Shown here: piece by piece, positions 49,279 to 56,340 of the stretch
How positions within the stretch are numbered: the stretch's first letter is position 1
How the letters are laid out: every line of letters starts with the position of its first letter
Assembly: GCF_007992835.1 (NCBI RefSeq)
Contig: NZ_BKBA01000002.1
Coordinates: 62,001-126,000 of the forward strand
Source of the DNA: Knoellia locipacati
Lineage (GTDB): Bacteria > Actinomycetota > Actinomycetes > Actinomycetales > Dermatophilaceae
Length of the DNA stretch: 64,000 nt
Reading direction: 5' to 3'
Program-made: the position numbers and the translations under genes
The notes under the pieces: generated by a model
Seen by the model: only the letters and a program-made list of their open reading frames with translations
Told to the model about the DNA's origin: nothing
Databases searched by the model: none

Positions 49279-51186
49279 ATGGCTCGCAGGTTCTCACGGT
49301 TCGGGGCGGGGGCGCTGGCTGCGATGCTGGCTGCGGCCGGACTCACGCTCAGCAGCACGTCGACGGCGTCGGCCACGGACTGGGGCAGCTGCCTCGAGGG
49401 TCCGGACGACACTCAGGCCGTCTTCGCACGGGCCGCGCAGGTCAGCGGGGTCCCCGAGGACGTGCTGCTCGCGGTCGGCTACATGGGCGGCCGCTGGAGC
49501 CACCACGCCGGGCAGCCCAGCGTGTCCGGCGGGTACGGCGTCATGCACCTGACCGACAGGCCCGTGGCCCCGGTGTCCGCGCCGGACAAGGGCGACGCCG
49601 CCACCGGGCTGCCCAGTCGTGCGGGCACGCTGGTCGTCGCGGGTCAGCGGACCGGGCTGTCGGCCGAGCGGCTGCGCACCGACCCCGTCGCCAACATCTG
49701 CGGGGCGGCTGCCGTGCTGGCGTCGTACCAGCCCGGCACGACGGCGCAGGGTCCGGCCGGGTGGAGCAAGGCGGTCGCGAGGTATGCCGGCACCGCCGAC
49801 CGACAGGAGGCCCTGAACTACGCCGGCCTCGTGTTCGACGTGATCCGGGCCGGTGCCACCGAGACCAACGACCTCGGCGACGCCGTGACGCTGGCTGCGG
49901 ACCCGGGCGCGACGCTCGACACCGCAGCCGTGGCGGGCGACCGCGTCCTCCGGCCCGGAGTCCAGGAGCTCGAGTGCCCCTCGACGATCGACTGCGACGT
50001 CGTCGAGGCGCAGTACCGCCGCACCGGACCCGCCGTCACGCAGTACGTCAACTACGACCTCGCCGACCGCGAGAAGGACCTGTCGATCGACTACCTCGTC
50101 GTGCACAACACCGAGTGCACCTACGACGTCTGCACCAGGCTCATCAAGGGCGAGGCCGAGCCGAACCGGTTCGTGTCGTGGCACTACACCGTGCGGTCCA
50201 AGGACGGACACGTCGACCAGCACGTCGCCACCCGCAACGTCGCCGCCCATGCGGGCAACTGGTACCTCAACATGCACTCCATCGGTGTCGAGCACGAGGG
50301 CAAGGCCGGCGAGCCCGGCACGTGGTACACCGAGGCGCTCTACCGTTCCTCGGCCCAGCTGGTGTCCTACCTCGCCACGCAGAAGGGCATCCCGCTCGAC
50401 CGCGCCCACGTCGTCGGCCACGAGGAGTTCATGTCGAGCAACTACAAGTGGGACCCGGGGCCCTACTGGGACTGGGAGCACTACATGGCCCTGCTCGGCG
50501 CCCCCATCAAGCCCGACCGGCGCAGCGGCCCCAGCCAGGTGTTCACGGTCAAGCCCGGCTTCACCGACAACGCCCGGACGCTCACCGGCTGCTTCGCGAC
50601 CGAGACGCAGCCGGGCCGGGCCTGCCCGTCGTTCGGCACCAACTACGTCGACGTCCGCACCGCCCCGAGCGACTCGGCGCCTCTCGTGTGGGGGTCCACC
50701 GACCTGGTCTCCGACCGCGACGCCCGCGCAGTCGCCGGTCACAAGTTCTCCGTCGCCGGACGCCAGGGCGACTGGGTGAAGGTCTGGTGGGACGGCTCCA
50801 CCGGGTGGGTCAAGAGCCCGACGGGCAAGAAGTCCACCCTTGTCCCGTCCCAGGGTGAGGTCGTCGAACCGGTGCGCCAGTCCGTCCCGGTCTATGCGCG
50901 CGCCTACCCCGAGGCGTCGGCGTATGCCGGCACGCCGGTGCCGAACCAGGGGCAGCCCACCGTCACCGCGCCCGACGGGTCGGTGCTCACGCTCCAGCCG
51001 GGTCAGCGCTACGTCGTCGCCGACAGGACGGTCCCGACCGACTACTACCACGCGAAGTCGTTCGACAACTCGCTCCCCGGCGACAAGACCGTCGTCAGAG
51101 GGCAGCAGGAGTACTTCCAGGTCTGGGTCGGGCACCGCTTCGGCTACGTCAAGGCCGAGGACGTGAGGGTGCTCTCCGGGCGGTGA
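49279..51186 (+). CDS. Secreted N-acetylmuramoyl-L-alanine amidase with lysozyme-like and SH3-like domains
   Basis: A 635-residue exported cell-wall enzyme. The signal peptide (MARRFSRFGAGALAAMLAAA) ends near ASA (residue 33). Residues about 45-175 resemble a soluble lytic transglycosylase fold (VPEDVLLAVGYMGGRWSHHAG, GGYGVMHLTD), but where I recall ESRW in relatives this protein has GGRW, so the catalytic Glu may be lost. Residues about 265-415 form an Amidase_2/PGRP domain (DYLVVHNTEC, HSIGVEHEG, HVVGHEEF, KWDPGPYWDW) that cuts the peptide from muramic acid. SH3-like repeats near VDVRTAPSDSAPLVW and VWVGHRFGYVKAEDV probably bind the wall. GGAAGG precedes the ATG. Confidence 0.92.
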   Translation: MARRFSRFGAGALAAMLAAAGLTLSSTSTASATDWGSCLEGPDDTQAVFARAAQVSGVPEDVLLAVGYMGGRWSHHAGQPSVSGGYGVMHLTDRPVAPVSAPDKGDAATGLPSRAGTLVVAGQRTGLSAERLRTDPVANICGAAAVLASYQPGTTAQGPAGWSKAVARYAGTADRQEALNYAGLVFDVIRAGATETNDLGDAVTLAADPGATLDTAAVAGDRVLRPGVQELECPSTIDCDVVEAQYRRTGPAVTQYVNYDLADREKDLSIDYLVVHNTECTYDVCTRLIKGEAEPNRFVSWHYTVRSKDGHVDQHVATRNVAAHAGNWYLNMHSIGVEHEGKAGEPGTWYTEALYRSSAQLVSYLATQKGIPLDRAHVVGHEEFMSSNYKWDPGPYWDWEHYMALLGAPIKPDRRSGPSQVFTVKPGFTDNARTLTGCFATETQPGRACPSFGTNYVDVRTAPSDSAPLVWGSTDLVSDRDARAVAGHKFSVAGRQGDWVKVWWDGSTGWVKSPTGKKSTLVPSQGEVVEPVRQSVPVYARAYPEASAYAGTPVPNQGQPTVTAPDGSVLTLQPGQRYVVADRTVPTDYYHAKSFDNSLPGDKTVVRGQQEYFQVWVGHRFGYVKAEDVRVLSGR

Positions 51187-51205
51187 CGGGGCTCGCCGCT
51201 CGTCG

Positions 51206-51667
51206 TCAGTCGGGGGTCACCCGGCCCCGACCGGACTTGAGGTCGCCGCGGCGCTTCTTGGCGTCGAGCCTGCGCCGCTGCGAGCCCCTCGTCGGTCGCG
51301 TGGGTCGACGTGACGGCGGCGCCGGGGCCAGTGCCTCGCGCAGGATCGCGACGAGCCGTTCGCGGGCGGCGGCCCGGTTGCGCAGCTGGGACCTGTGCTC
51401 GGAGGCGACGACGACGATCCGCCCCTGCACCAGGCTGGACCCCAGCACCTCGACCACCCTGCCCGCCTGCGTCGGCGTGAGCGACGTCGACGCTGCCGGG
51501 TCGAAGACAAGCTCGACCCGGCTGTCGGTCGTGTTGACTCCCTGACCACCGGGGCCCGACGCGCGGCTGAACCGCTCGACGAGCTCGGACGCATCGAGCA
51601 CGAGGCCGCCGGGCAGACCGGGACCGGGCCGCACCACGAGGTTGCCCGGACCGTTCATGCCAGCCAT
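51206..51667 (-). CDS. arfB: Peptidyl-tRNA hydrolase ArfB-like (GGQ, RF-1 domain)
   Basis: A 153-residue GGQ-domain protein (YaeJ/ArfB). ASELVERFSRASGPGGQGVNTTDSRVEL contains GGQ near residue 43 in consecutive parts. Then come the RIVVVASEHRSQLRNRAAARERL helix and a basic tail (RRRLDAKKRRGDLKSGRG) that enters the mRNA channel. The family frees ribosomes stalled without a stop codon. The ATG at 51667 is annotated; the ATG at 51658 is also possible, and neither has a clear ribosome-binding site. It lies 13 bp after the cimA stop and is convergent with the amidase gene. Confidence 0.9.
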   Translation of the reverse strand: MAGMNGPGNLVVRPGPGLPGGLVLDASELVERFSRASGPGGQGVNTTDSRVELVFDPAASTSLTPTQAGRVVEVLGSSLVQGRIVVVASEHRSQLRNRAAARERLVAILREALAPAPPSRRPTRPTRGSQRRRLDAKKRRGDLKSGRGRVTPD

Positions 51668-51680
51668 GGTCGCAGGGTGG

Positions 51681-53306
51681 TCAGCGGGCGGGCACTCCGG
51701 CGCGCAGCAGGCCGTAGGTGACGCTCTCGACGAGCGCCATCCAGCTCGCCTCGAGGATGTTCGCGGCGACACCGATGGTCTCCCAGGTCGTCTCGCCGTC
51801 GCTCGTCTCGATGAGCACCCGGGTCACGGCGTCGGTGCCGTGCGCCGCGTCGAGGATGCGGACGCGGTAGTCGATGAGCTCGAGGTGCTCGATCTCGGGG
51901 TAGGCCGTGGCGAGTGCGAGCCGCAGTGCGTGGTCGAGCGCGTTGACGGGACCGTTGCCCTCGCCGGTGCGCAGGACCCGCTTGCCCCCGGCGGTGAGCT
52001 TGACCGTCGCCTCCGACAGGGCGCCGCCGTCGGACTGGCTGTCGGTGATGACCCGCCACGACTCGACCTCGAAGAACGGCGGCAGCGCGCCGTCGATCTC
52101 CCGGCGCAGGAGCAGCTCGAAGCTCGCGTCCGCGGCGTCGAAGGTGTAGCCGCGCAGCTCGAGGTCCTTCACGGTCGCGAGCACCCGCTGCACGAGTGCG
52201 CTGTCCTCGTCCCTCAGCGGGTCGAGGTCGAGGCCGAGCTCGCGGGCCTTGAGCTCGATCGACGCGCGGCCGGCCATGTCGGAGATGAGCATCCGCATGT
52301 CGTTGCCGACGTGCTTGGGGTCGAGGTGCTGGTAGAGGTCGGGGTCGACCTTGATCGCGCTCGCGTGCAGCCCGGCCTTGTGCGCGAACGCGCTCGCCCC
52401 CGTGTAGGGCTGGCGGCTGTAGGCCGGCACGTTGGTGATCTCGCTGATGGCGTGGCTGATCCGCGTCGACTCCTGGAGCCGGTGCGGCTCCAGGACCTGC
52501 TGGCCGACCTTGAGCTGGAGGTTGGCGACGACCGTGACGAGGTTGGCGTTGCCGGTGCGCTCGCCGTAGCCGTTGATGGTGCCCTGCACGTGCGTCGCGC
52601 CGGCGTCGACGGCCGCCATCGAGTTGGCGACGGCGCAACCTGTGTCGTTGTGGCAGTGGATCCCCAGCCGGGCGTCGCCGCTCGCTCCCGCGTCGAGCCC
52701 GGTGAGGCCGAGGCTCTGGGCGACATCGGTGACGACGTCCCAGACCTGGCCGGGGAGCATGCCGCCGTTGGTGTCGCACAGGGCCGCCACCTCGCCCCCG
52801 GACTCGAAGACGGCGCGGAGGGCCTCGAGCGCGTAGGCGCGGTCGACGGCATACCCGTCGAAGAAGTGCTCCGCGTCGACGAAGACGCGCCTCCCCTCAC
52901 CGCGAAGGAAGGTCACGGTGTCGCGGATCATCTCGAGGTTCTCGGCCTTGGTCGTGCGCAGGGCGCGCTCGACGTGCCCCACGTGGGACTTCGCGACGAG
53001 GGTGACGACCGGTGCCCGGCTGTCGAGCAGCGCCCGCACCAGCGGGTCGGTGGCGGCGGAGCCTCCCGCGCGCCGGGTGGCGCCGAACGCCGCCAGCGTG
53101 GCGTTCTTGAGCTCGAGTTCGGTGGCGGCCCGGGCGAAGAACTCGGTGTCCTTCGGGTTCGCCCCGGGCCAGCCACCTTCGATGAAGCCCACGCCGAGCT
53201 CGTCGAGGTGGGACGCGATGGTGAGCTTGTCCGCCACGGAGAGGTTGAGCCCCTCCTGCTGGGCACCATCGCGCAGGGTGGTGTCGTAGACGTGCAGGTC
53301 GCTCAT
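51681..53306 (-). CDS. cimA: (R)-citramalate synthase
   Basis: A 541-residue DRE-TIM metallolyase that condenses acetyl-CoA and pyruvate to citramalate, the threonine-independent entry to isoleucine. VYDTTLRDGAQQEGLNLSVADKL is the family start with the DGAQ motif. GIHCHNDTGCAVANSMAAV has the HxH metal site, and GYGERTGNANLVTV follows. The long C-terminal regulatory domain (about 140 residues, VKLTAGGKRVLRTGEGNGPV onward) suggests feedback control by isoleucine. The ATG at 53306 has a GAGGCGAGA stretch upstream. The 5' leader has a terminator and a short Val-Ile-Ile reading frame, described separately, which points to attenuation. Confidence 0.93.
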   Translation of the reverse strand: MSDLHVYDTTLRDGAQQEGLNLSVADKLTIASHLDELGVGFIEGGWPGANPKDTEFFARAATELELKNATLAAFGATRRAGGSAATDPLVRALLDSRAPVVTLVAKSHVGHVERALRTTKAENLEMIRDTVTFLRGEGRRVFVDAEHFFDGYAVDRAYALEALRAVFESGGEVAALCDTNGGMLPGQVWDVVTDVAQSLGLTGLDAGASGDARLGIHCHNDTGCAVANSMAAVDAGATHVQGTINGYGERTGNANLVTVVANLQLKVGQQVLEPHRLQESTRISHAISEITNVPAYSRQPYTGASAFAHKAGLHASAIKVDPDLYQHLDPKHVGNDMRMLISDMAGRASIELKARELGLDLDPLRDEDSALVQRVLATVKDLELRGYTFDAADASFELLLRREIDGALPPFFEVESWRVITDSQSDGGALSEATVKLTAGGKRVLRTGEGNGPVNALDHALRLALATAYPEIEHLELIDYRVRILDAAHGTDAVTRVLIETSDGETTWETIGVAANILEASWMALVESVTYGLLRAGVPAR

Positions 53307-53445
53307 TCGTGTCTCGCCTCGATCGGTCTCGTGCCGTGGTTGTCGCAGTGCTCTAAGTGTCGCCCTCGAACCAGCGTTGCCGTCCAGCAGCCGGGGTGTG
53401 GCGGCCGGACCCTCTGCCTGGCGACTGCGGCGCACCGTCGTCGAC

Positions 53446-53478
53446 CAAACAAAAAGACCCCCCGGGTGTGGGAGGTCT
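53446..53478 (-). terminator. T-tract terminator inside the cimA leader (candidate attenuator)
   Basis: On the minus strand AGACCTCCC, a 6-nt loop and GGGGGGTCT form a 9-bp stem (one U-G pair) followed by TTTTTGTTT. It is the only hairpin with a real T-tract noticed in the window. It lies 140 bp before cimA with no gene upstream on that strand, so it can only act on the cimA transcript. Confidence 0.75.
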
Positions 53479-53506
53479 GCGCGACGAACGGTGACGTTCG
53501 TCGCGC
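53479..53506 (-). promoter_or_regulatory. Perfect 12-bp leader hairpin before the cimA attenuator
   Basis: GCGCGACGAACG (53479-53490) pairs fully with CGTTCGTCGCGC (53495-53506), 4-nt loop. Its base coincides with the last base of the leader-peptide stop codon and it abuts the terminator. It may act as a pause or anti-antiterminator hairpin. Confidence 0.65.
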
Positions 53507-53541
53507 TAGTCGATAATGACGGTGGCGGTGGCCACGGACAT
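53506..53541 (-). CDS. Putative leader peptide of cimA (MSVATATVIID)
   Basis: An 11-codon frame, ATG at 53541 and TAG at 53508-53506, encoding MSVATATVIID. Val-Ile-Ile codons (GTC ATT ATC) stand just before the stop, and ATT is rare in this genome. That is the layout of branched-chain amino acid leader peptides: scarcity of charged tRNA-Ile or tRNA-Val would stall a ribosome next to the hairpin pair. An in-frame GTG at 53550 would add three residues. No strong ribosome-binding site was seen; a leaderless GTG start is possible. The match of regulatory codons to the isoleucine pathway is the main support. Confidence 0.6.
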   Translation of the reverse strand: MSVATATVIID

Positions 53542-53664
53542 GGGAGTCACGAGGAGAGCGTGGCACGCGCGCCCGGCATGCGGGAAGGTCTGTCCACATC
53601 GCGGGCGCCCGCTCGGGTCCACTCCGCTTCGAGCGAGGTATGCCGTCCGCACCCCTCGCGTCGC

Positions 53665-53670
53665 TACGCT
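53665..53670 (+). promoter_or_regulatory. -10 box TACGCT of the gene at 53679
   Basis: TACGCT ends 8 nt before the ATG at 53679, another leaderless-type arrangement. Confidence 0.5.
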
Positions 53671-53678
53671 CGGCTCCC

Positions 53679-54140
53679 ATGGGAGAGACGTTGCACCTCA
53701 CCGCCGTCCTCGAGCCGCGAGGCCCCGCGGGCGCGCTGGTGTTCACCGACGACCAGGTGGCGGCGATGGGCGACGGGGCGAAGACCTTCCCCGTGACCGT
53801 GACGGTCGGTGACACCACGCTCCACCTCCGGCTTGCCCGGATGGGCGGCGAGTCGCTCGTCGGGTTGAGCAAGGCGGCGCGCGCCGAGGCCGGGGTCGAG
53901 ATCGGCGACACCGTGACGTTCAGCATCGCCGCGGAGACGGGTCCGCGGACGGTCGAGGTGCCCGGCGACCTCGCCGAGGCCCTCGCCCGCGATCCCGCGG
54001 CGGCTCGGGCCTTCGAGTCGATGGCCTACACCCACCGCAAGGAGTACGTGCGGTGGGTGGGCGAGGCCAAGCGCGAGCAGACCCGACTCGACCGCATCGC
54101 GAAGACCGTCGAGATGGTGCGCGAGGGCCGCACCCGCTGA
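53679..54140 (+). CDS. DUF1905/YdeI (OmpD-associated) family protein
   Basis: A 153-residue protein. The first 95 residues fit the DUF1905 beta-barrel-like domain (GETLHLTAVLEPRGPAGALVF, VTVGDTTLHLRLARMGGESLVGLSKAAR, GDTVTFSIAAETGPRTVEVP). The C-terminus is the Bacteriocin-protection/YdeI-type helix pair (LARDPAAARAFESMAYTHRKEYVRWVGEAKREQTRLDRI), described by its ends here: AFESMAYTHRKEYVRWV. The biochemical role is unknown; homologues are cytoplasmic. Start supported by a TACGCT box at leaderless distance. Complete and single-copy in the window. Confidence 0.82.
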   Translation: MGETLHLTAVLEPRGPAGALVFTDDQVAAMGDGAKTFPVTVTVGDTTLHLRLARMGGESLVGLSKAARAEAGVEIGDTVTFSIAAETGPRTVEVPGDLAEALARDPAAARAFESMAYTHRKEYVRWVGEAKREQTRLDRIAKTVEMVREGRTR

Positions 54141-54145
54141 GGCGT

Positions 54146-54190
54146 GTCAACTCAGGGTTGACGTCCAGACTTCGTCAACCTATCGTTGAC
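54146..54190 (+). promoter_or_regulatory. Two GTCAAC-N5-GTTGAC palindromes at a promoter
   Basis: GTCAAC-TCAGG-GTTGAC (54146-54162) and GTCAAC-CTATC-GTTGAC (54174-54190) are two identical-armed 17-bp operators, 28 bp from centre to centre. The second covers TATCGT (54181-54186), a -10 box 7 nt before the next ATG. A dimeric repressor bound here would block the promoter. The regulator is unknown. Confidence 0.65.
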
Positions 54191-54193
54191 ACC

Positions 54194-54445
54194 ATGACCC
54201 GACGCCCGGACATCCGCCCCCGCAGGAAGACCTCACTCTCGACCGGCATGCTCTGCGTGCTCGGTGGTCTCGTCGCCCTCATGCTGTCCCGGGGCCGCGA
54301 CGGGTTCGACAAGGGCTTCTTCCTCGGCGCCTGCATCGCCCTCATGATCCTGGGCGCCTACCTCCTGGGGTCGGCGACCTTCCGCAAGGGCACCGAGGAC
54401 GAGCTCGGTGACGACGCGTGGCTGCCGAGCCGCGACGGGCGCTGA
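54194..54445 (+). CDS. Small membrane protein with two transmembrane segments
   Basis: An 83-residue protein of unknown family. After a basic N-terminus (RRPDIRPRRKTS) come two hydrophobic segments, TGMLCVLGGLVALML and FFLGACIALMILGAYLLG, joined by a short charged loop (SRGRDGFDKG). A charged tail follows. This predicts a two-pass protein with both ends in the cytoplasm. The ATG lies 4 nt after the second GTCAAC palindrome, so its expression is probably repressor-controlled. The following gene starts 4 bp after its stop and is likely in the same transcript. Confidence 0.78.
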   Translation: MTRRPDIRPRRKTSLSTGMLCVLGGLVALMLSRGRDGFDKGFFLGACIALMILGAYLLGSATFRKGTEDELGDDAWLPSRDGR

Positions 54446-54449
54446 GCGC

Positions 54450-55007
54450 GTGACGACGTCGGACGGCCCGTCCACGCACCCGACCAGCGAGTCCGGCGCG
54501 GTCCACCGCGACCTCGTCGAGGCGGTCGGGTCGGCGATCCTCTCGACGGCCCCCAGCAGGGACCCGCTCGTCCTCGTCGAGCACACGGCGTCCGCCGAGG
54601 CGGCCGTGCGGGACCTGCTGTCGCAGGCCGTGGGCACCGCCCGCGCCGACGGTCACAGCTGGGCCGCAATCGGCGCCGTGCTCGGCATGAGCCGCCAGGC
54701 CGTGCAGCAGCGGTTCGGCGGTCGCGGCGGTGACGACGAGCTCGAGCCGGAGGAGCGGTGGCTGGGTCCGGTCACGGCCTTCGACGAGATGGCCGAGCTC
54801 GAGCTCGCCGGGCGACTGGGCTGGCACACGATCGGGGTGGGCATGCTCCGCCACCGCATGGTCCGCACCCCGCACCAGTGGGAGCACAAGCGGGTGCTCT
54901 GGTCGGGTTCGCTCACCCGGTGGGAGAAGGACGACTGGGTCCTGGGGTCGCGGGCCTTCCCGTGGGTCTACCTCGTGCGCGACACCGGGCTGCCCGCCGA
55001 GGAGTGA
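54450..55007 (+). CDS. Helix-turn-helix protein of unknown function
   Basis: A 185-residue protein. Residues about 55-90 (AVRDLLSQAVGTARADGHSWAAIGAVLGMSRQAVQQRFG in consecutive parts) form a helix-turn-helix like that of sigma region 4 or AsnC, with recognition helix GMSRQAVQQRFG. The rest (LGPVTAFDEMAELELAGRLGWHT, WLRHR-type and WEHKRVLWSGS) is not recognised and is rich in Trp. It could be the regulator that binds the GTCAAC palindromes in front of its own operon, which is an inference. GTG start at 54450, 4 bp after the upstream stop. Confidence 0.72.
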   Translation: MTTSDGPSTHPTSESGAVHRDLVEAVGSAILSTAPSRDPLVLVEHTASAEAAVRDLLSQAVGTARADGHSWAAIGAVLGMSRQAVQQRFGGRGGDDELEPEERWLGPVTAFDEMAELELAGRLGWHTIGVGMLRHRMVRTPHQWEHKRVLWSGSLTRWEKDDWVLGSRAFPWVYLVRDTGLPAEE

Positions 55008-55053
55008 CCGCCGGAGTGACGCGGCGCAGGACCGCCGGGGACTGACAGCAGGC

Positions 55054-56340
55054 TCAGCCTCGGCGGCGACGGCCCAGCCCGGCCCGGGCCCCGGCGCCGT
55101 CGAGGCTCGCGCGGTCGGCGGCGGCGCGACCGACGTGCCAGCCCTCGGCGTCGCGGACCGAGCCCGTGGACTTTGTCCGGACCGACGGGAACCACTCGCC
55201 CACCGTGGCCTCGACCTCCTCGGTGCGGGCGGCGAGGAGCGGGACGAGGGCCTGCCCCTGGGGCCCGGCCGCCGACACGGCAGCATCAGTCTCGGCGTCC
55301 ATGACCTCGCGCAGGCGCTCACCGATCCGGTGCGCGTAGGCAGTGAGGAACGACGAGCGGAAGGCCCGGGTGCGACTGCGGCCGCGGTGGTCCTCGCGTG
55401 AGCCCTCGGCCAGCATCCGGGTGTTGGCCTGGACGAGCAGGGACGTGAAGAGCAGCTCGACCGACTCGAGGTCGCCCTCGAAGCCCACGACGGTGCCGAA
55501 GCCCAGGGCGCGGGTCCAGACCATGCGGCAGTGGTTCGCGGTCGCGACGGCCGTGAGCAGCGACGCCTTGGGGCCGTCGTAGGGGGTCTCGATCCCGATC
55601 CGCCGACCCCGTGGCCCCTCCCCCGCGTCGGGCTCGCGCGCGGAGAGCAGGGCGAGGTCGATGCTGTGCCGGGCCATGAGTGCCTGGGCGCCCGCGGTGA
55701 ACGTCTCGGCCTCGGCGGCGAAGGTCGTCGACTCGGCCTTGGCGAGCAGCATCCGGACCCGCTCGAGGATGCGCGAGTCCACGTGGGCCGGCGCCGACCC
55801 GGCGCGCCCTGCGCCTCCGGCAGCAGCCTGCGGTGCCGCGGTCGCCGTGCCCGGCAGCGGCGAGAGCCGCTCGATCCCCGGCAGGGTCTGGAGGAGGTGC
55901 AGGACCGTCAGCGCCTGCGTCAGCAGGGTGAGCCAGTCCGCGCCCCGGCGTCGTCGGGCGTCGAGCCAGGTCTGGGAGCGCGGCCACCACACCGCGCCCT
56001 GGAGCGTCTCGAGCTGCGACCACCACTGGGGGTCGACGGTCGTCGAGGCATAGCGGTCGAGCTCGTCGGCCATGACGTCGAGGACGACGACCTGCTCGTC
56101 GGCACCGAGCCCTCGCACCGCCATGCGGTGCACGTCGGCGGGCTGCCAGCCCCGCTCCCAGGCCCCCGTCGTGGCCGCGCGCAACGACTCGACCACCGCG
56201 CCGCCCACCGCCCGGGCGCCCTCGGCGGTGTCGCACCGCTGCGCCAGGGCGACGACGACGTCGTCGAAGGCGCGGGCCCGCCGGGCGCCCAAGGCACGGA
56301 CCGCGAGCGCGACCAGGTCCGACTCGGTGCTGCTGTGCAT
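55054..56340 (-). CDS. DUF2786 domain protein
   Basis: A 428-residue protein with the DUF2786 motif in the middle: RVRMLLAKAESTTFAAEAETFTAGAQALMARHSID, described by its ends, about residues 210-245. The N-terminal region is an Ala/Arg-rich helical domain (LVALAVRALGARRARAFDDVV). The C-terminal region includes FRSSFLTAYAHRIGERLREV. No enzyme motif is recognised. Phage and plasmid relatives exist, but codon use here equals that of the neighbours. The ATG at 56340 follows GGGGGAG. It stands alone between the convergent HTH gene and the metallo-beta-lactamase-fold gene. Confidence 0.78.
   Translation of the reverse strand: MHSSTESDLVALAVRALGARRARAFDDVVVALAQRCDTAEGARAVGGAVVESLRAATTGAWERGWQPADVHRMAVRGLGADEQVVVLDVMADELDRYASTTVDPQWWSQLETLQGAVWWPRSQTWLDARRRRGADWLTLLTQALTVLHLLQTLPGIERLSPLPGTATAAPQAAAGGAGRAGSAPAHVDSRILERVRMLLAKAESTTFAAEAETFTAGAQALMARHSIDLALLSAREPDAGEGPRGRRIGIETPYDGPKASLLTAVATANHCRMVWTRALGFGTVVGFEGDLESVELLFTSLLVQANTRMLAEGSREDHRGRSRTRAFRSSFLTAYAHRIGERLREVMDAETDAAVSAAGPQGQALVPLLAARTEEVEATVGEWFPSVRTKSTGSVRDAEGWHVGRAAADRASLDGAGARAGLGRRRRG

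Follow-up and report, generated by a model that had tools for sequence, protein, structure and literature searches.

The citramalate synthase gene cimA of Knoellia locipacati is preceded by an element that is very probably an attenuator reading isoleucine. It comprises a short predicted leader peptide gene containing two Ile codons, a hairpin that we call P1, and a terminator hairpin that begins where P1 ends. The fuller proposal, in which the contact between the two hairpins is the step that switches an isoleucine attenuator of cimA, is the reading we favor, although with distinctly less assurance. The element lies within a window of 64,000 nucleotides, by which we mean the whole stretch of DNA that was analyzed, and its features are as follows.

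53557–53562, minus strand: −10-like box CACGCT, 6 nt upstream of the leader start
53506–53550, minus strand: predicted leader peptide gene GTG...TAG, encoding VTPMSVATATVIID and a stop, 14 codons, probably leaderless (sequence reading, with coordinates from a script)
53512–53517, minus strand: regulatory codons ATT ATC (Ile Ile), the last codon 8 nt before P1
53479–53506, minus strand: hairpin P1, 12 bp, proposed antiterminator (folding, covariation)
53455–53478, minus strand: terminator hairpin, 9 bp (hairpin scan, folding, covariation)
53447–53455, minus strand: T-tract TTTTTGTTT, the first T of which is also paired in the terminator stem
51681–53306, minus strand: cimA, citramalate synthase, the putative controlled gene (TIGR00977, 637 bits against a cut-off of 450; HMGL-like and LeuA_dimer)

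P1 is a perfect 12-bp stem with the loop TCAC that begins with the G of the leader TAG (stop at 53508–53506). The terminator stem of 9 bp includes one U-G pair and begins at the base directly after P1, with no gap. Between the terminator and the cimA ATG at 53306 there are 140 nt (53446–53307). A preliminary description of this DNA had reported a perfect 12-bp hairpin and a 9-bp stem with a T-tract 140 bp before cimA, and these features were confirmed, with coordinates from a script. The 11-codon frame from ATG53541 ending Val-Ile-Ile-Asp-TAG, also described there, is present on reading the sequence and by script. We consider GTG53550, giving 14 codons, the more likely start of the predicted leader, because the box CACGCT ends 6 nt ahead of it and an equivalent start is seen again in relatives. 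The 110-nt segment 53549–53440 folds with an energy of −56.2 kcal/mol, compared with −33.0 kcal/mol (sd 3.3) for shuffled sequences (z = −6.95), and none of 200 shuffles was as good.

Both strands of the window were scanned for T-tract hairpins with a stem of at least 7 bp and at least six T in nine positions. This returned the cimA site only, as the preliminary description had claimed for the 64 kb. A looser hairpin scan, confined to 51000–56000, picked up one more site on the minus strand, a weak match of 5 bp at 51531. Equally, there is no upstream gene on the minus strand whose transcript this terminator might end; the neighbor at 53640–54140 (plus strand) is divergent, and has OmdA and DUF1905 domains. 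A frame with an RF-1 domain, of the peptide release factor type, is found downstream at 51206–51772 on the same strand as cimA. In a search of the whole window against Rfam, only two tRNAs scored above the gathering thresholds, leaving the element without a family, and a search of 53250–53700 with E up to 5 gave only two matches, both far below the gathering scores.

The idea of a leader-peptide attenuator in front of cimA was supported by a test that had been set beforehand, in that the Ile codons, the hairpin and the terminator are kept in related genomes. When 39 related genomes were searched with CimA as the protein query, 26 usable loci were obtained (L002–L027), the shorter or weaker L028–L031 being excluded. 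These were examined for a layout of terminator and leader stop, with an Ile-codon condition in the script. The element was present in 23 of the 26, and on inspection the leader in all 23 is the same short frame. The exceptions are L022, L025 and L027. In the first two the CimA match starts 47 and 25 nt, respectively, after a branched-chain aminotransferase gene, an arrangement that L027 resembles by eye. A branched-chain aminotransferase gene also lies upstream in L012, where the 240-nt gap contains the element.

In the alignment of the 23 loci, 94.8% of cells pair (shuffles: 84.2%), and both sides have changed in 11 of 20 pairs, compared with a shuffle mean of 5.9; neither value was reached in any of 500 shuffles. 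The covariation is found in both P1 and the terminator. Between the leader and the gene there is thus a predicted intrinsic terminator, with a stem that covaries and a T-tract that follows.

A covariance model, R1, was built from these 23 loci; its E-values are rough. In the genome of K. locipacati it gives one strong match, of 91 bits, at cimA. A second match of 19 bits (L033/L106) was dismissed as chance, having neither leader stop nor T-tract and looking like coding sequence. Of 297 genomes of the order, 132 have an R1 match at E ≤ 0.01, as do 59 of 396 genomes sampled across the phylum at E ≤ 0.001. TIGR00977 is present in 167 of the 297 genomes of the order. Among the 150 TIGR00977 genomes listed, 113 have an R1 match 36–240 nt upstream on the same strand (median gap to the cimA match 104 nt), and 37 have no R1 match upstream. 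Where loci carried genus labels, the element was found at 64 of 80 cimA loci, with no match at the other 16. Its holders include Knoellia, Pedococcus, Cellulomonas, Kribbella, Nocardioides, Nonomuraea, Actinomadura and all 26 Streptomyces records. Five of these 64 elements are identical to a member of the set of 105 cimA elements used below, and kinship among genomes inflates all of the counts given here. Moreover, R1 favors Ile columns and a zero linker, and the sets found with it are therefore biased. A further set of 144 elements, mostly found by R1, contains the 23 protein-found loci and excludes weak matches without convincing layout (e.g., L107–L111, L193 and L194). The phylum loci L175–L192 stand outside the counts; one of them, L178, coincides with L065, which the counts include.

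We have examined which amino acid the leader might sense by counting codons among the last six of the leader, in the frame of the R1 model. Every one of the 105 cimA elements has an Ile codon there, and in 94 there are at least two; at least two Val codons are present in just 2. The preliminary description had proposed isoleucine or valine as the signal; the signal read looks like isoleucine rather than valine. Other genes have other codons. Of 29 ilvB elements, 20 have one Ile codon and none has two or more, two or more Val codons are present in 19, and two or more Leu codons in 15. Two or more Leu codons are also found in five of six leuS elements. For elements that do not precede cimA, gene names were assigned by eye according to how the next frame begins, and NCBIfam agreed with these names in 10 of 10 frames checked, eight of which belong to the 144 elements and two of which do not. 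The K. locipacati genome itself provides an example, since its ilvB, about 20 kb away, has the leader VARLLVLPPAPGPS followed by a stop, with P1 and terminator 1 nt apart. This is the cimA layout with other codons.

The Ile codons of the leaders are also unusual in kind. Of 217 Ile codons in the leaders, 115 are ATT (53%), compared with 14 of 486 (3%) in 26 cimA genes; the odds ratio of 38 is descriptive, the sequences being related. Their position is likewise constrained. Of 104 cimA elements (L077 omitted), 88 have their last Ile codon beginning 8 nt ahead of P1, and the leader stop falls between 4 nt before P1 and its first base in 96 of the 104, and inside P1 in the other 8. In the genus-labelled set the distance from the last Ile codon to P1 is 8 nt in 33 of 64 elements and 11 nt in 23; the 11-nt spacing belongs to Streptomyces and one close relative, where the stop is inside P1. 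The predicted leader thus has the codons for the end product that are expected of an attenuator, as seen in their conservation, the excess of ATT and the switching of codons from gene to gene, and its assignment as an isoleucine sensor is well supported by comparison of sequences. Some cimA leaders of cellulomonad type have Cys codons together with a single Ile, as in L023 (MTRVRQAHHLCSCRIS and stop) and L208 (Isoptericola; ending RCRCLIS and stop), as if cysteine were sensed too.

Transcription probably starts at or near the leader start codon, at about 53550, judging by the promoter-like sequence. A NANNNT motif is found 5–8 nt before an in-frame start in 98 of the 105 cimA elements, compared with 159 of 735 shifted controls, and in 59 of the 64 genus-labelled elements, compared with 137 of 448. 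The distance is almost always 6 or 7 nt. Elements without the motif include most of one family with large genomes. The predicted leader is thus probably leaderless, a property that is on record for S. lividans ilvL and leuL2 (PMC8079986, in part) and that is frequent among actinobacterial ilvB attenuators (PMC8079986, PMC11857589, PMC10272879 and PMC13236596, all in part). Inside the leader of the window, upstream of the Ile codons, a small hairpin GTGGC-CACC-GCCAC can be drawn at 53535–53522 (minus strand), and similar ones appear in free folds of several relatives, such as L011, L013, L014, L016, L019 and L020. It might cause the polymerase to pause until a ribosome has begun.

How might the position of a ribosome on the leader be communicated to the terminator? 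In the attenuators of the enterobacterial trp, ilvGMEDA and leu operons, the position of the ribosome at the regulatory codons decides between termination and read-through, by means of overlapping 2:3 and 3:4 pairings. The cimA element shares the principle of ribosome position, but no overlapping pairings were found on folding it. When the leader was masked as by a stalled ribosome, plain folding retained both hairpins in 23 of 23 loci. Forbidding the terminator cost 14.1–18.1 kcal/mol and gave no replacement helix in the structures printed, in folding that takes no account of kinetics, pseudoknots or polymerase. Thus plain folding of the 23 loci gave no antiterminator sharing bases with the terminator, and the earlier impression, gained by eye, that there is no convincing antiterminator agrees with the constrained folding. 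One candidate seen by eye in the window, pairing of GACTCCC at the leader 5′ end with the terminator 3′ arm, was rejected because relatives such as L011, L014, L018 and L024 lack it. The free fold of the window also contains a closing stem UCGACUA/UGGUCGA, which looked by eye to be specific to its genus. Judged by the criterion of a shared strand, the element lies outside the classical definition of an attenuator, yet it is putatively attenuator-like in action.

What is constant is the contact between the hairpins. Of the 23 cimA loci found by protein, 22 have a linker of 0 nt between P1 and the terminator, and one has a linker of 1 nt. In the 64 genus-labelled elements the linker is 0 in 55 and 1 in 9, even as P1 lengthens from about 24 to about 70 nt. 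Among the 144 elements, a set in which R1 favors a linker of zero, it is 0 in 121, 1 in 18, 2 in 3 and 4 in 2, the leuS elements (n = 6) having the loosest. We also picked 30 ilvB loci by protein from 60 genomes of the class, independently of R1. The layout of leader, P1 and terminator was found in 26 of these, with a linker of 0 in 21 and 1 in 5; in the other 4 the script did not find it. The ends that touch differ in strength. The first five pairs of P1 are 91–99% G-C in 137 distinct elements, and in the same elements the first terminator pair is A-U in 72% and the third in 61%, A-U pairs at the foot of a terminator being common anyway. We read this as a GC clamp opposed to a weak terminator foot. 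The contact could instead reflect mere compactness. Terminator stems close within the exit channel of the polymerase. The gate of this channel is reported to measure about 27 Å when it contains single-stranded RNA and about 30 Å when it contains a hairpin, and antitermination results when a protein plugs the channel (PMC6624301, in part). By analogy, a second duplex without slack should block closure of the terminator as a plug does, and the contact would then be the antitermination step.

We propose that transcription would start at or beside the leader start codon, so that a ribosome could enter the 14-codon leader at once. When charged Ile-tRNA is scarce the ribosome would stall at ATT ATC, with its leading edge just short of P1. 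P1 would then form, and its GC-clamped duplex, touching the terminator stem with zero spare nucleotides, would keep the weak lower rungs of the terminator open in the RNA polymerase exit channel, and cimA would be transcribed. When isoleucine is plentiful the ribosome would advance to the stop, which borders P1 (or lies within it in Streptomyces), and melt the hairpin; the freed 3′ strand would provide slack, the terminator would close, and transcription would end. A ribosome reaches about 12 nt beyond its A site, so that P1 would be wholly or almost wholly exposed during a stall at the Ile pair, and its 5′ arm would be covered by a ribosome that has come to the stop. P1 can reform once the ribosome leaves the stop, and the model therefore needs the ribosome to linger there while the polymerase passes the U-tract.

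A pairing that plain folding would miss is a pseudoknot with a shared strand, in which the P1 loop would mimic the terminator 5′ arm and pair with its 3′ arm, comparable to Corynebacterium ilvB-II, where a pairing of loop and shoulder has been drawn (PMC10272879, in part). The P1 loops of some loci do resemble the terminator 5′ arm, such as L014 (loop region AGACCTCC) and L065 (−13.1 kcal/mol), and the mean loop–arm pairing of −3.25 is stronger than the −2.18 obtained with random loops of 70% GC. However, the observed loops do not outdo shuffled versions of themselves (mean −3.38, sd of means 0.15, for 126 distinct loop–arm pairs), the terminator loops are equally C-rich, and the loop UCAC of the window itself has a pairing score of +0.6. 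We consider such a pseudoknot unlikely. Still less probable is a role for P1 in aiding termination as a pause or helper hairpin, with a ribosome at the stop leading to read-through. Both hairpins can coexist in folding, which agrees with such a role, and structure alone gives no direction to the regulation. Yet cimA would then be raised when isoleucine is plentiful, which is backwards for a biosynthetic gene, and a pausing role leaves the contact of 0–1 nt unexplained. Furthermore, changing the leader codons LVVI of Mycobacterium tuberculosis ilvB1 to Ala gave low, inducer-independent expression (PMC13236596, in part). An ordinary terminator unlinked to isoleucine, with a cimA promoter between it and the gene, is very improbable, since the 140-nt gap of the window has room enough for a promoter but the corresponding gap is short in other genomes (see above), with an open frame beginning 15 nt past the element in L065, and the conserved Ile codons, the excess of ATT and the codon switching would go unexplained.

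In its contact-based form the cimA attenuator invites comparison with those already known in actinobacteria before ilvB, leuS and leuA (PMC1262725). The ilvB attenuators (Corynebacterium ilvBNC and ilvB-II, Mycobacterium ilvB1, Streptomyces ilvL) likewise have a short branched-chain leader, a hairpin and a terminator with a U-tract (PMC8079986, PMC11857589, PMC10272879 and PMC13236596, in the portions covered), and the ilvB loci that we sampled by protein have the same hairpin contact. The cimA element differs in its gene and its Ile codons, and also in that the published ilvB models, as far as these portions extend, have antiterminator and terminator competing for bases, where folding and loop–arm scoring found no such competition in the cimA element. 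In C. glutamicum ilvBNC, termed a 'fast' attenuator, the two structures share a boundary trinucleotide (PMC11857589, in part); compared by text, the cimA hairpins are 0–1 nt apart and shared nucleotides were not found. For leuS and leuA, the attenuators known from Streptomyces and other actinobacteria also place regulatory codons before a hairpin and terminator (PMC1262725), and R1 finds leuS and leuA elements of similar layout. Their codons are for Leu instead of Ile. Unlike cimA, the leuS elements have the stop inside P1 in four of six and linkers of 0–4 nt, and the LEU element of leuA as published has a pseudoknot around the Shine-Dalgarno box (PMC1262725). We judge the chances evenly balanced that the cimA, ilvB, and probably leuS and leuA attenuators follow one contact design, in which the antiterminator touches the terminator instead of contesting its bases, and a ribosome at the stop melts the blocking hairpin.

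Several further elements were seen in passing. L184, in a distant actinobacterium, is an R1 match of similar layout before leuB (leader ending SIVIIR and stop), and L189, in another distant actinobacterium, is a weaker match before an isocitrate lyase gene (leader ending GFVAIA and stop), an odd target. L187, from an AT-rich distant relative, has a branched-chain leader and a GCCATG...CATGGC hairpin touching the terminator, before an apparent ilvB (by eye). In many ilvB leaders (L275, L287, L294, L300, L301) the branched-chain codons are followed directly by one for Gly (ILVLGKRVG, VIGTRAG, VLGQRAG); judged by eye, the GG of this Gly codon could pair with CC in the terminator 5′ arm when free of ribosomes.

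We have found no publication on a cimA or citramalate attenuator or leader peptide in the literature searched, outside which lie most subscription journals. The S. lividans paper (PMC8079986) does not contain the word cimA, although Streptomyces carries the element, and there is no mention of cimA in the portions of PMC1262725, PMC13236596, PMC11857589 and PMC10272879 covered. Citramalate synthase, with which the citramalate route to isoleucine begins, would join the genes under predicted leader-peptide control, from Knoellia to Streptomyces. Other attenuator elements have been reported missing from several actinobacterial amino acid leaders (PMC1262725), and results for S. coelicolor ilvB and leuA are termed paradoxical in the title of reference 22 cited there. 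The contact between hairpins offers a testable answer to this puzzle. If it is the switch, attenuators may have been misread where only competing base pairs were sought, and the contact rule would provide both an easy signature to search with and a compact plan for building sensors of amino acids.
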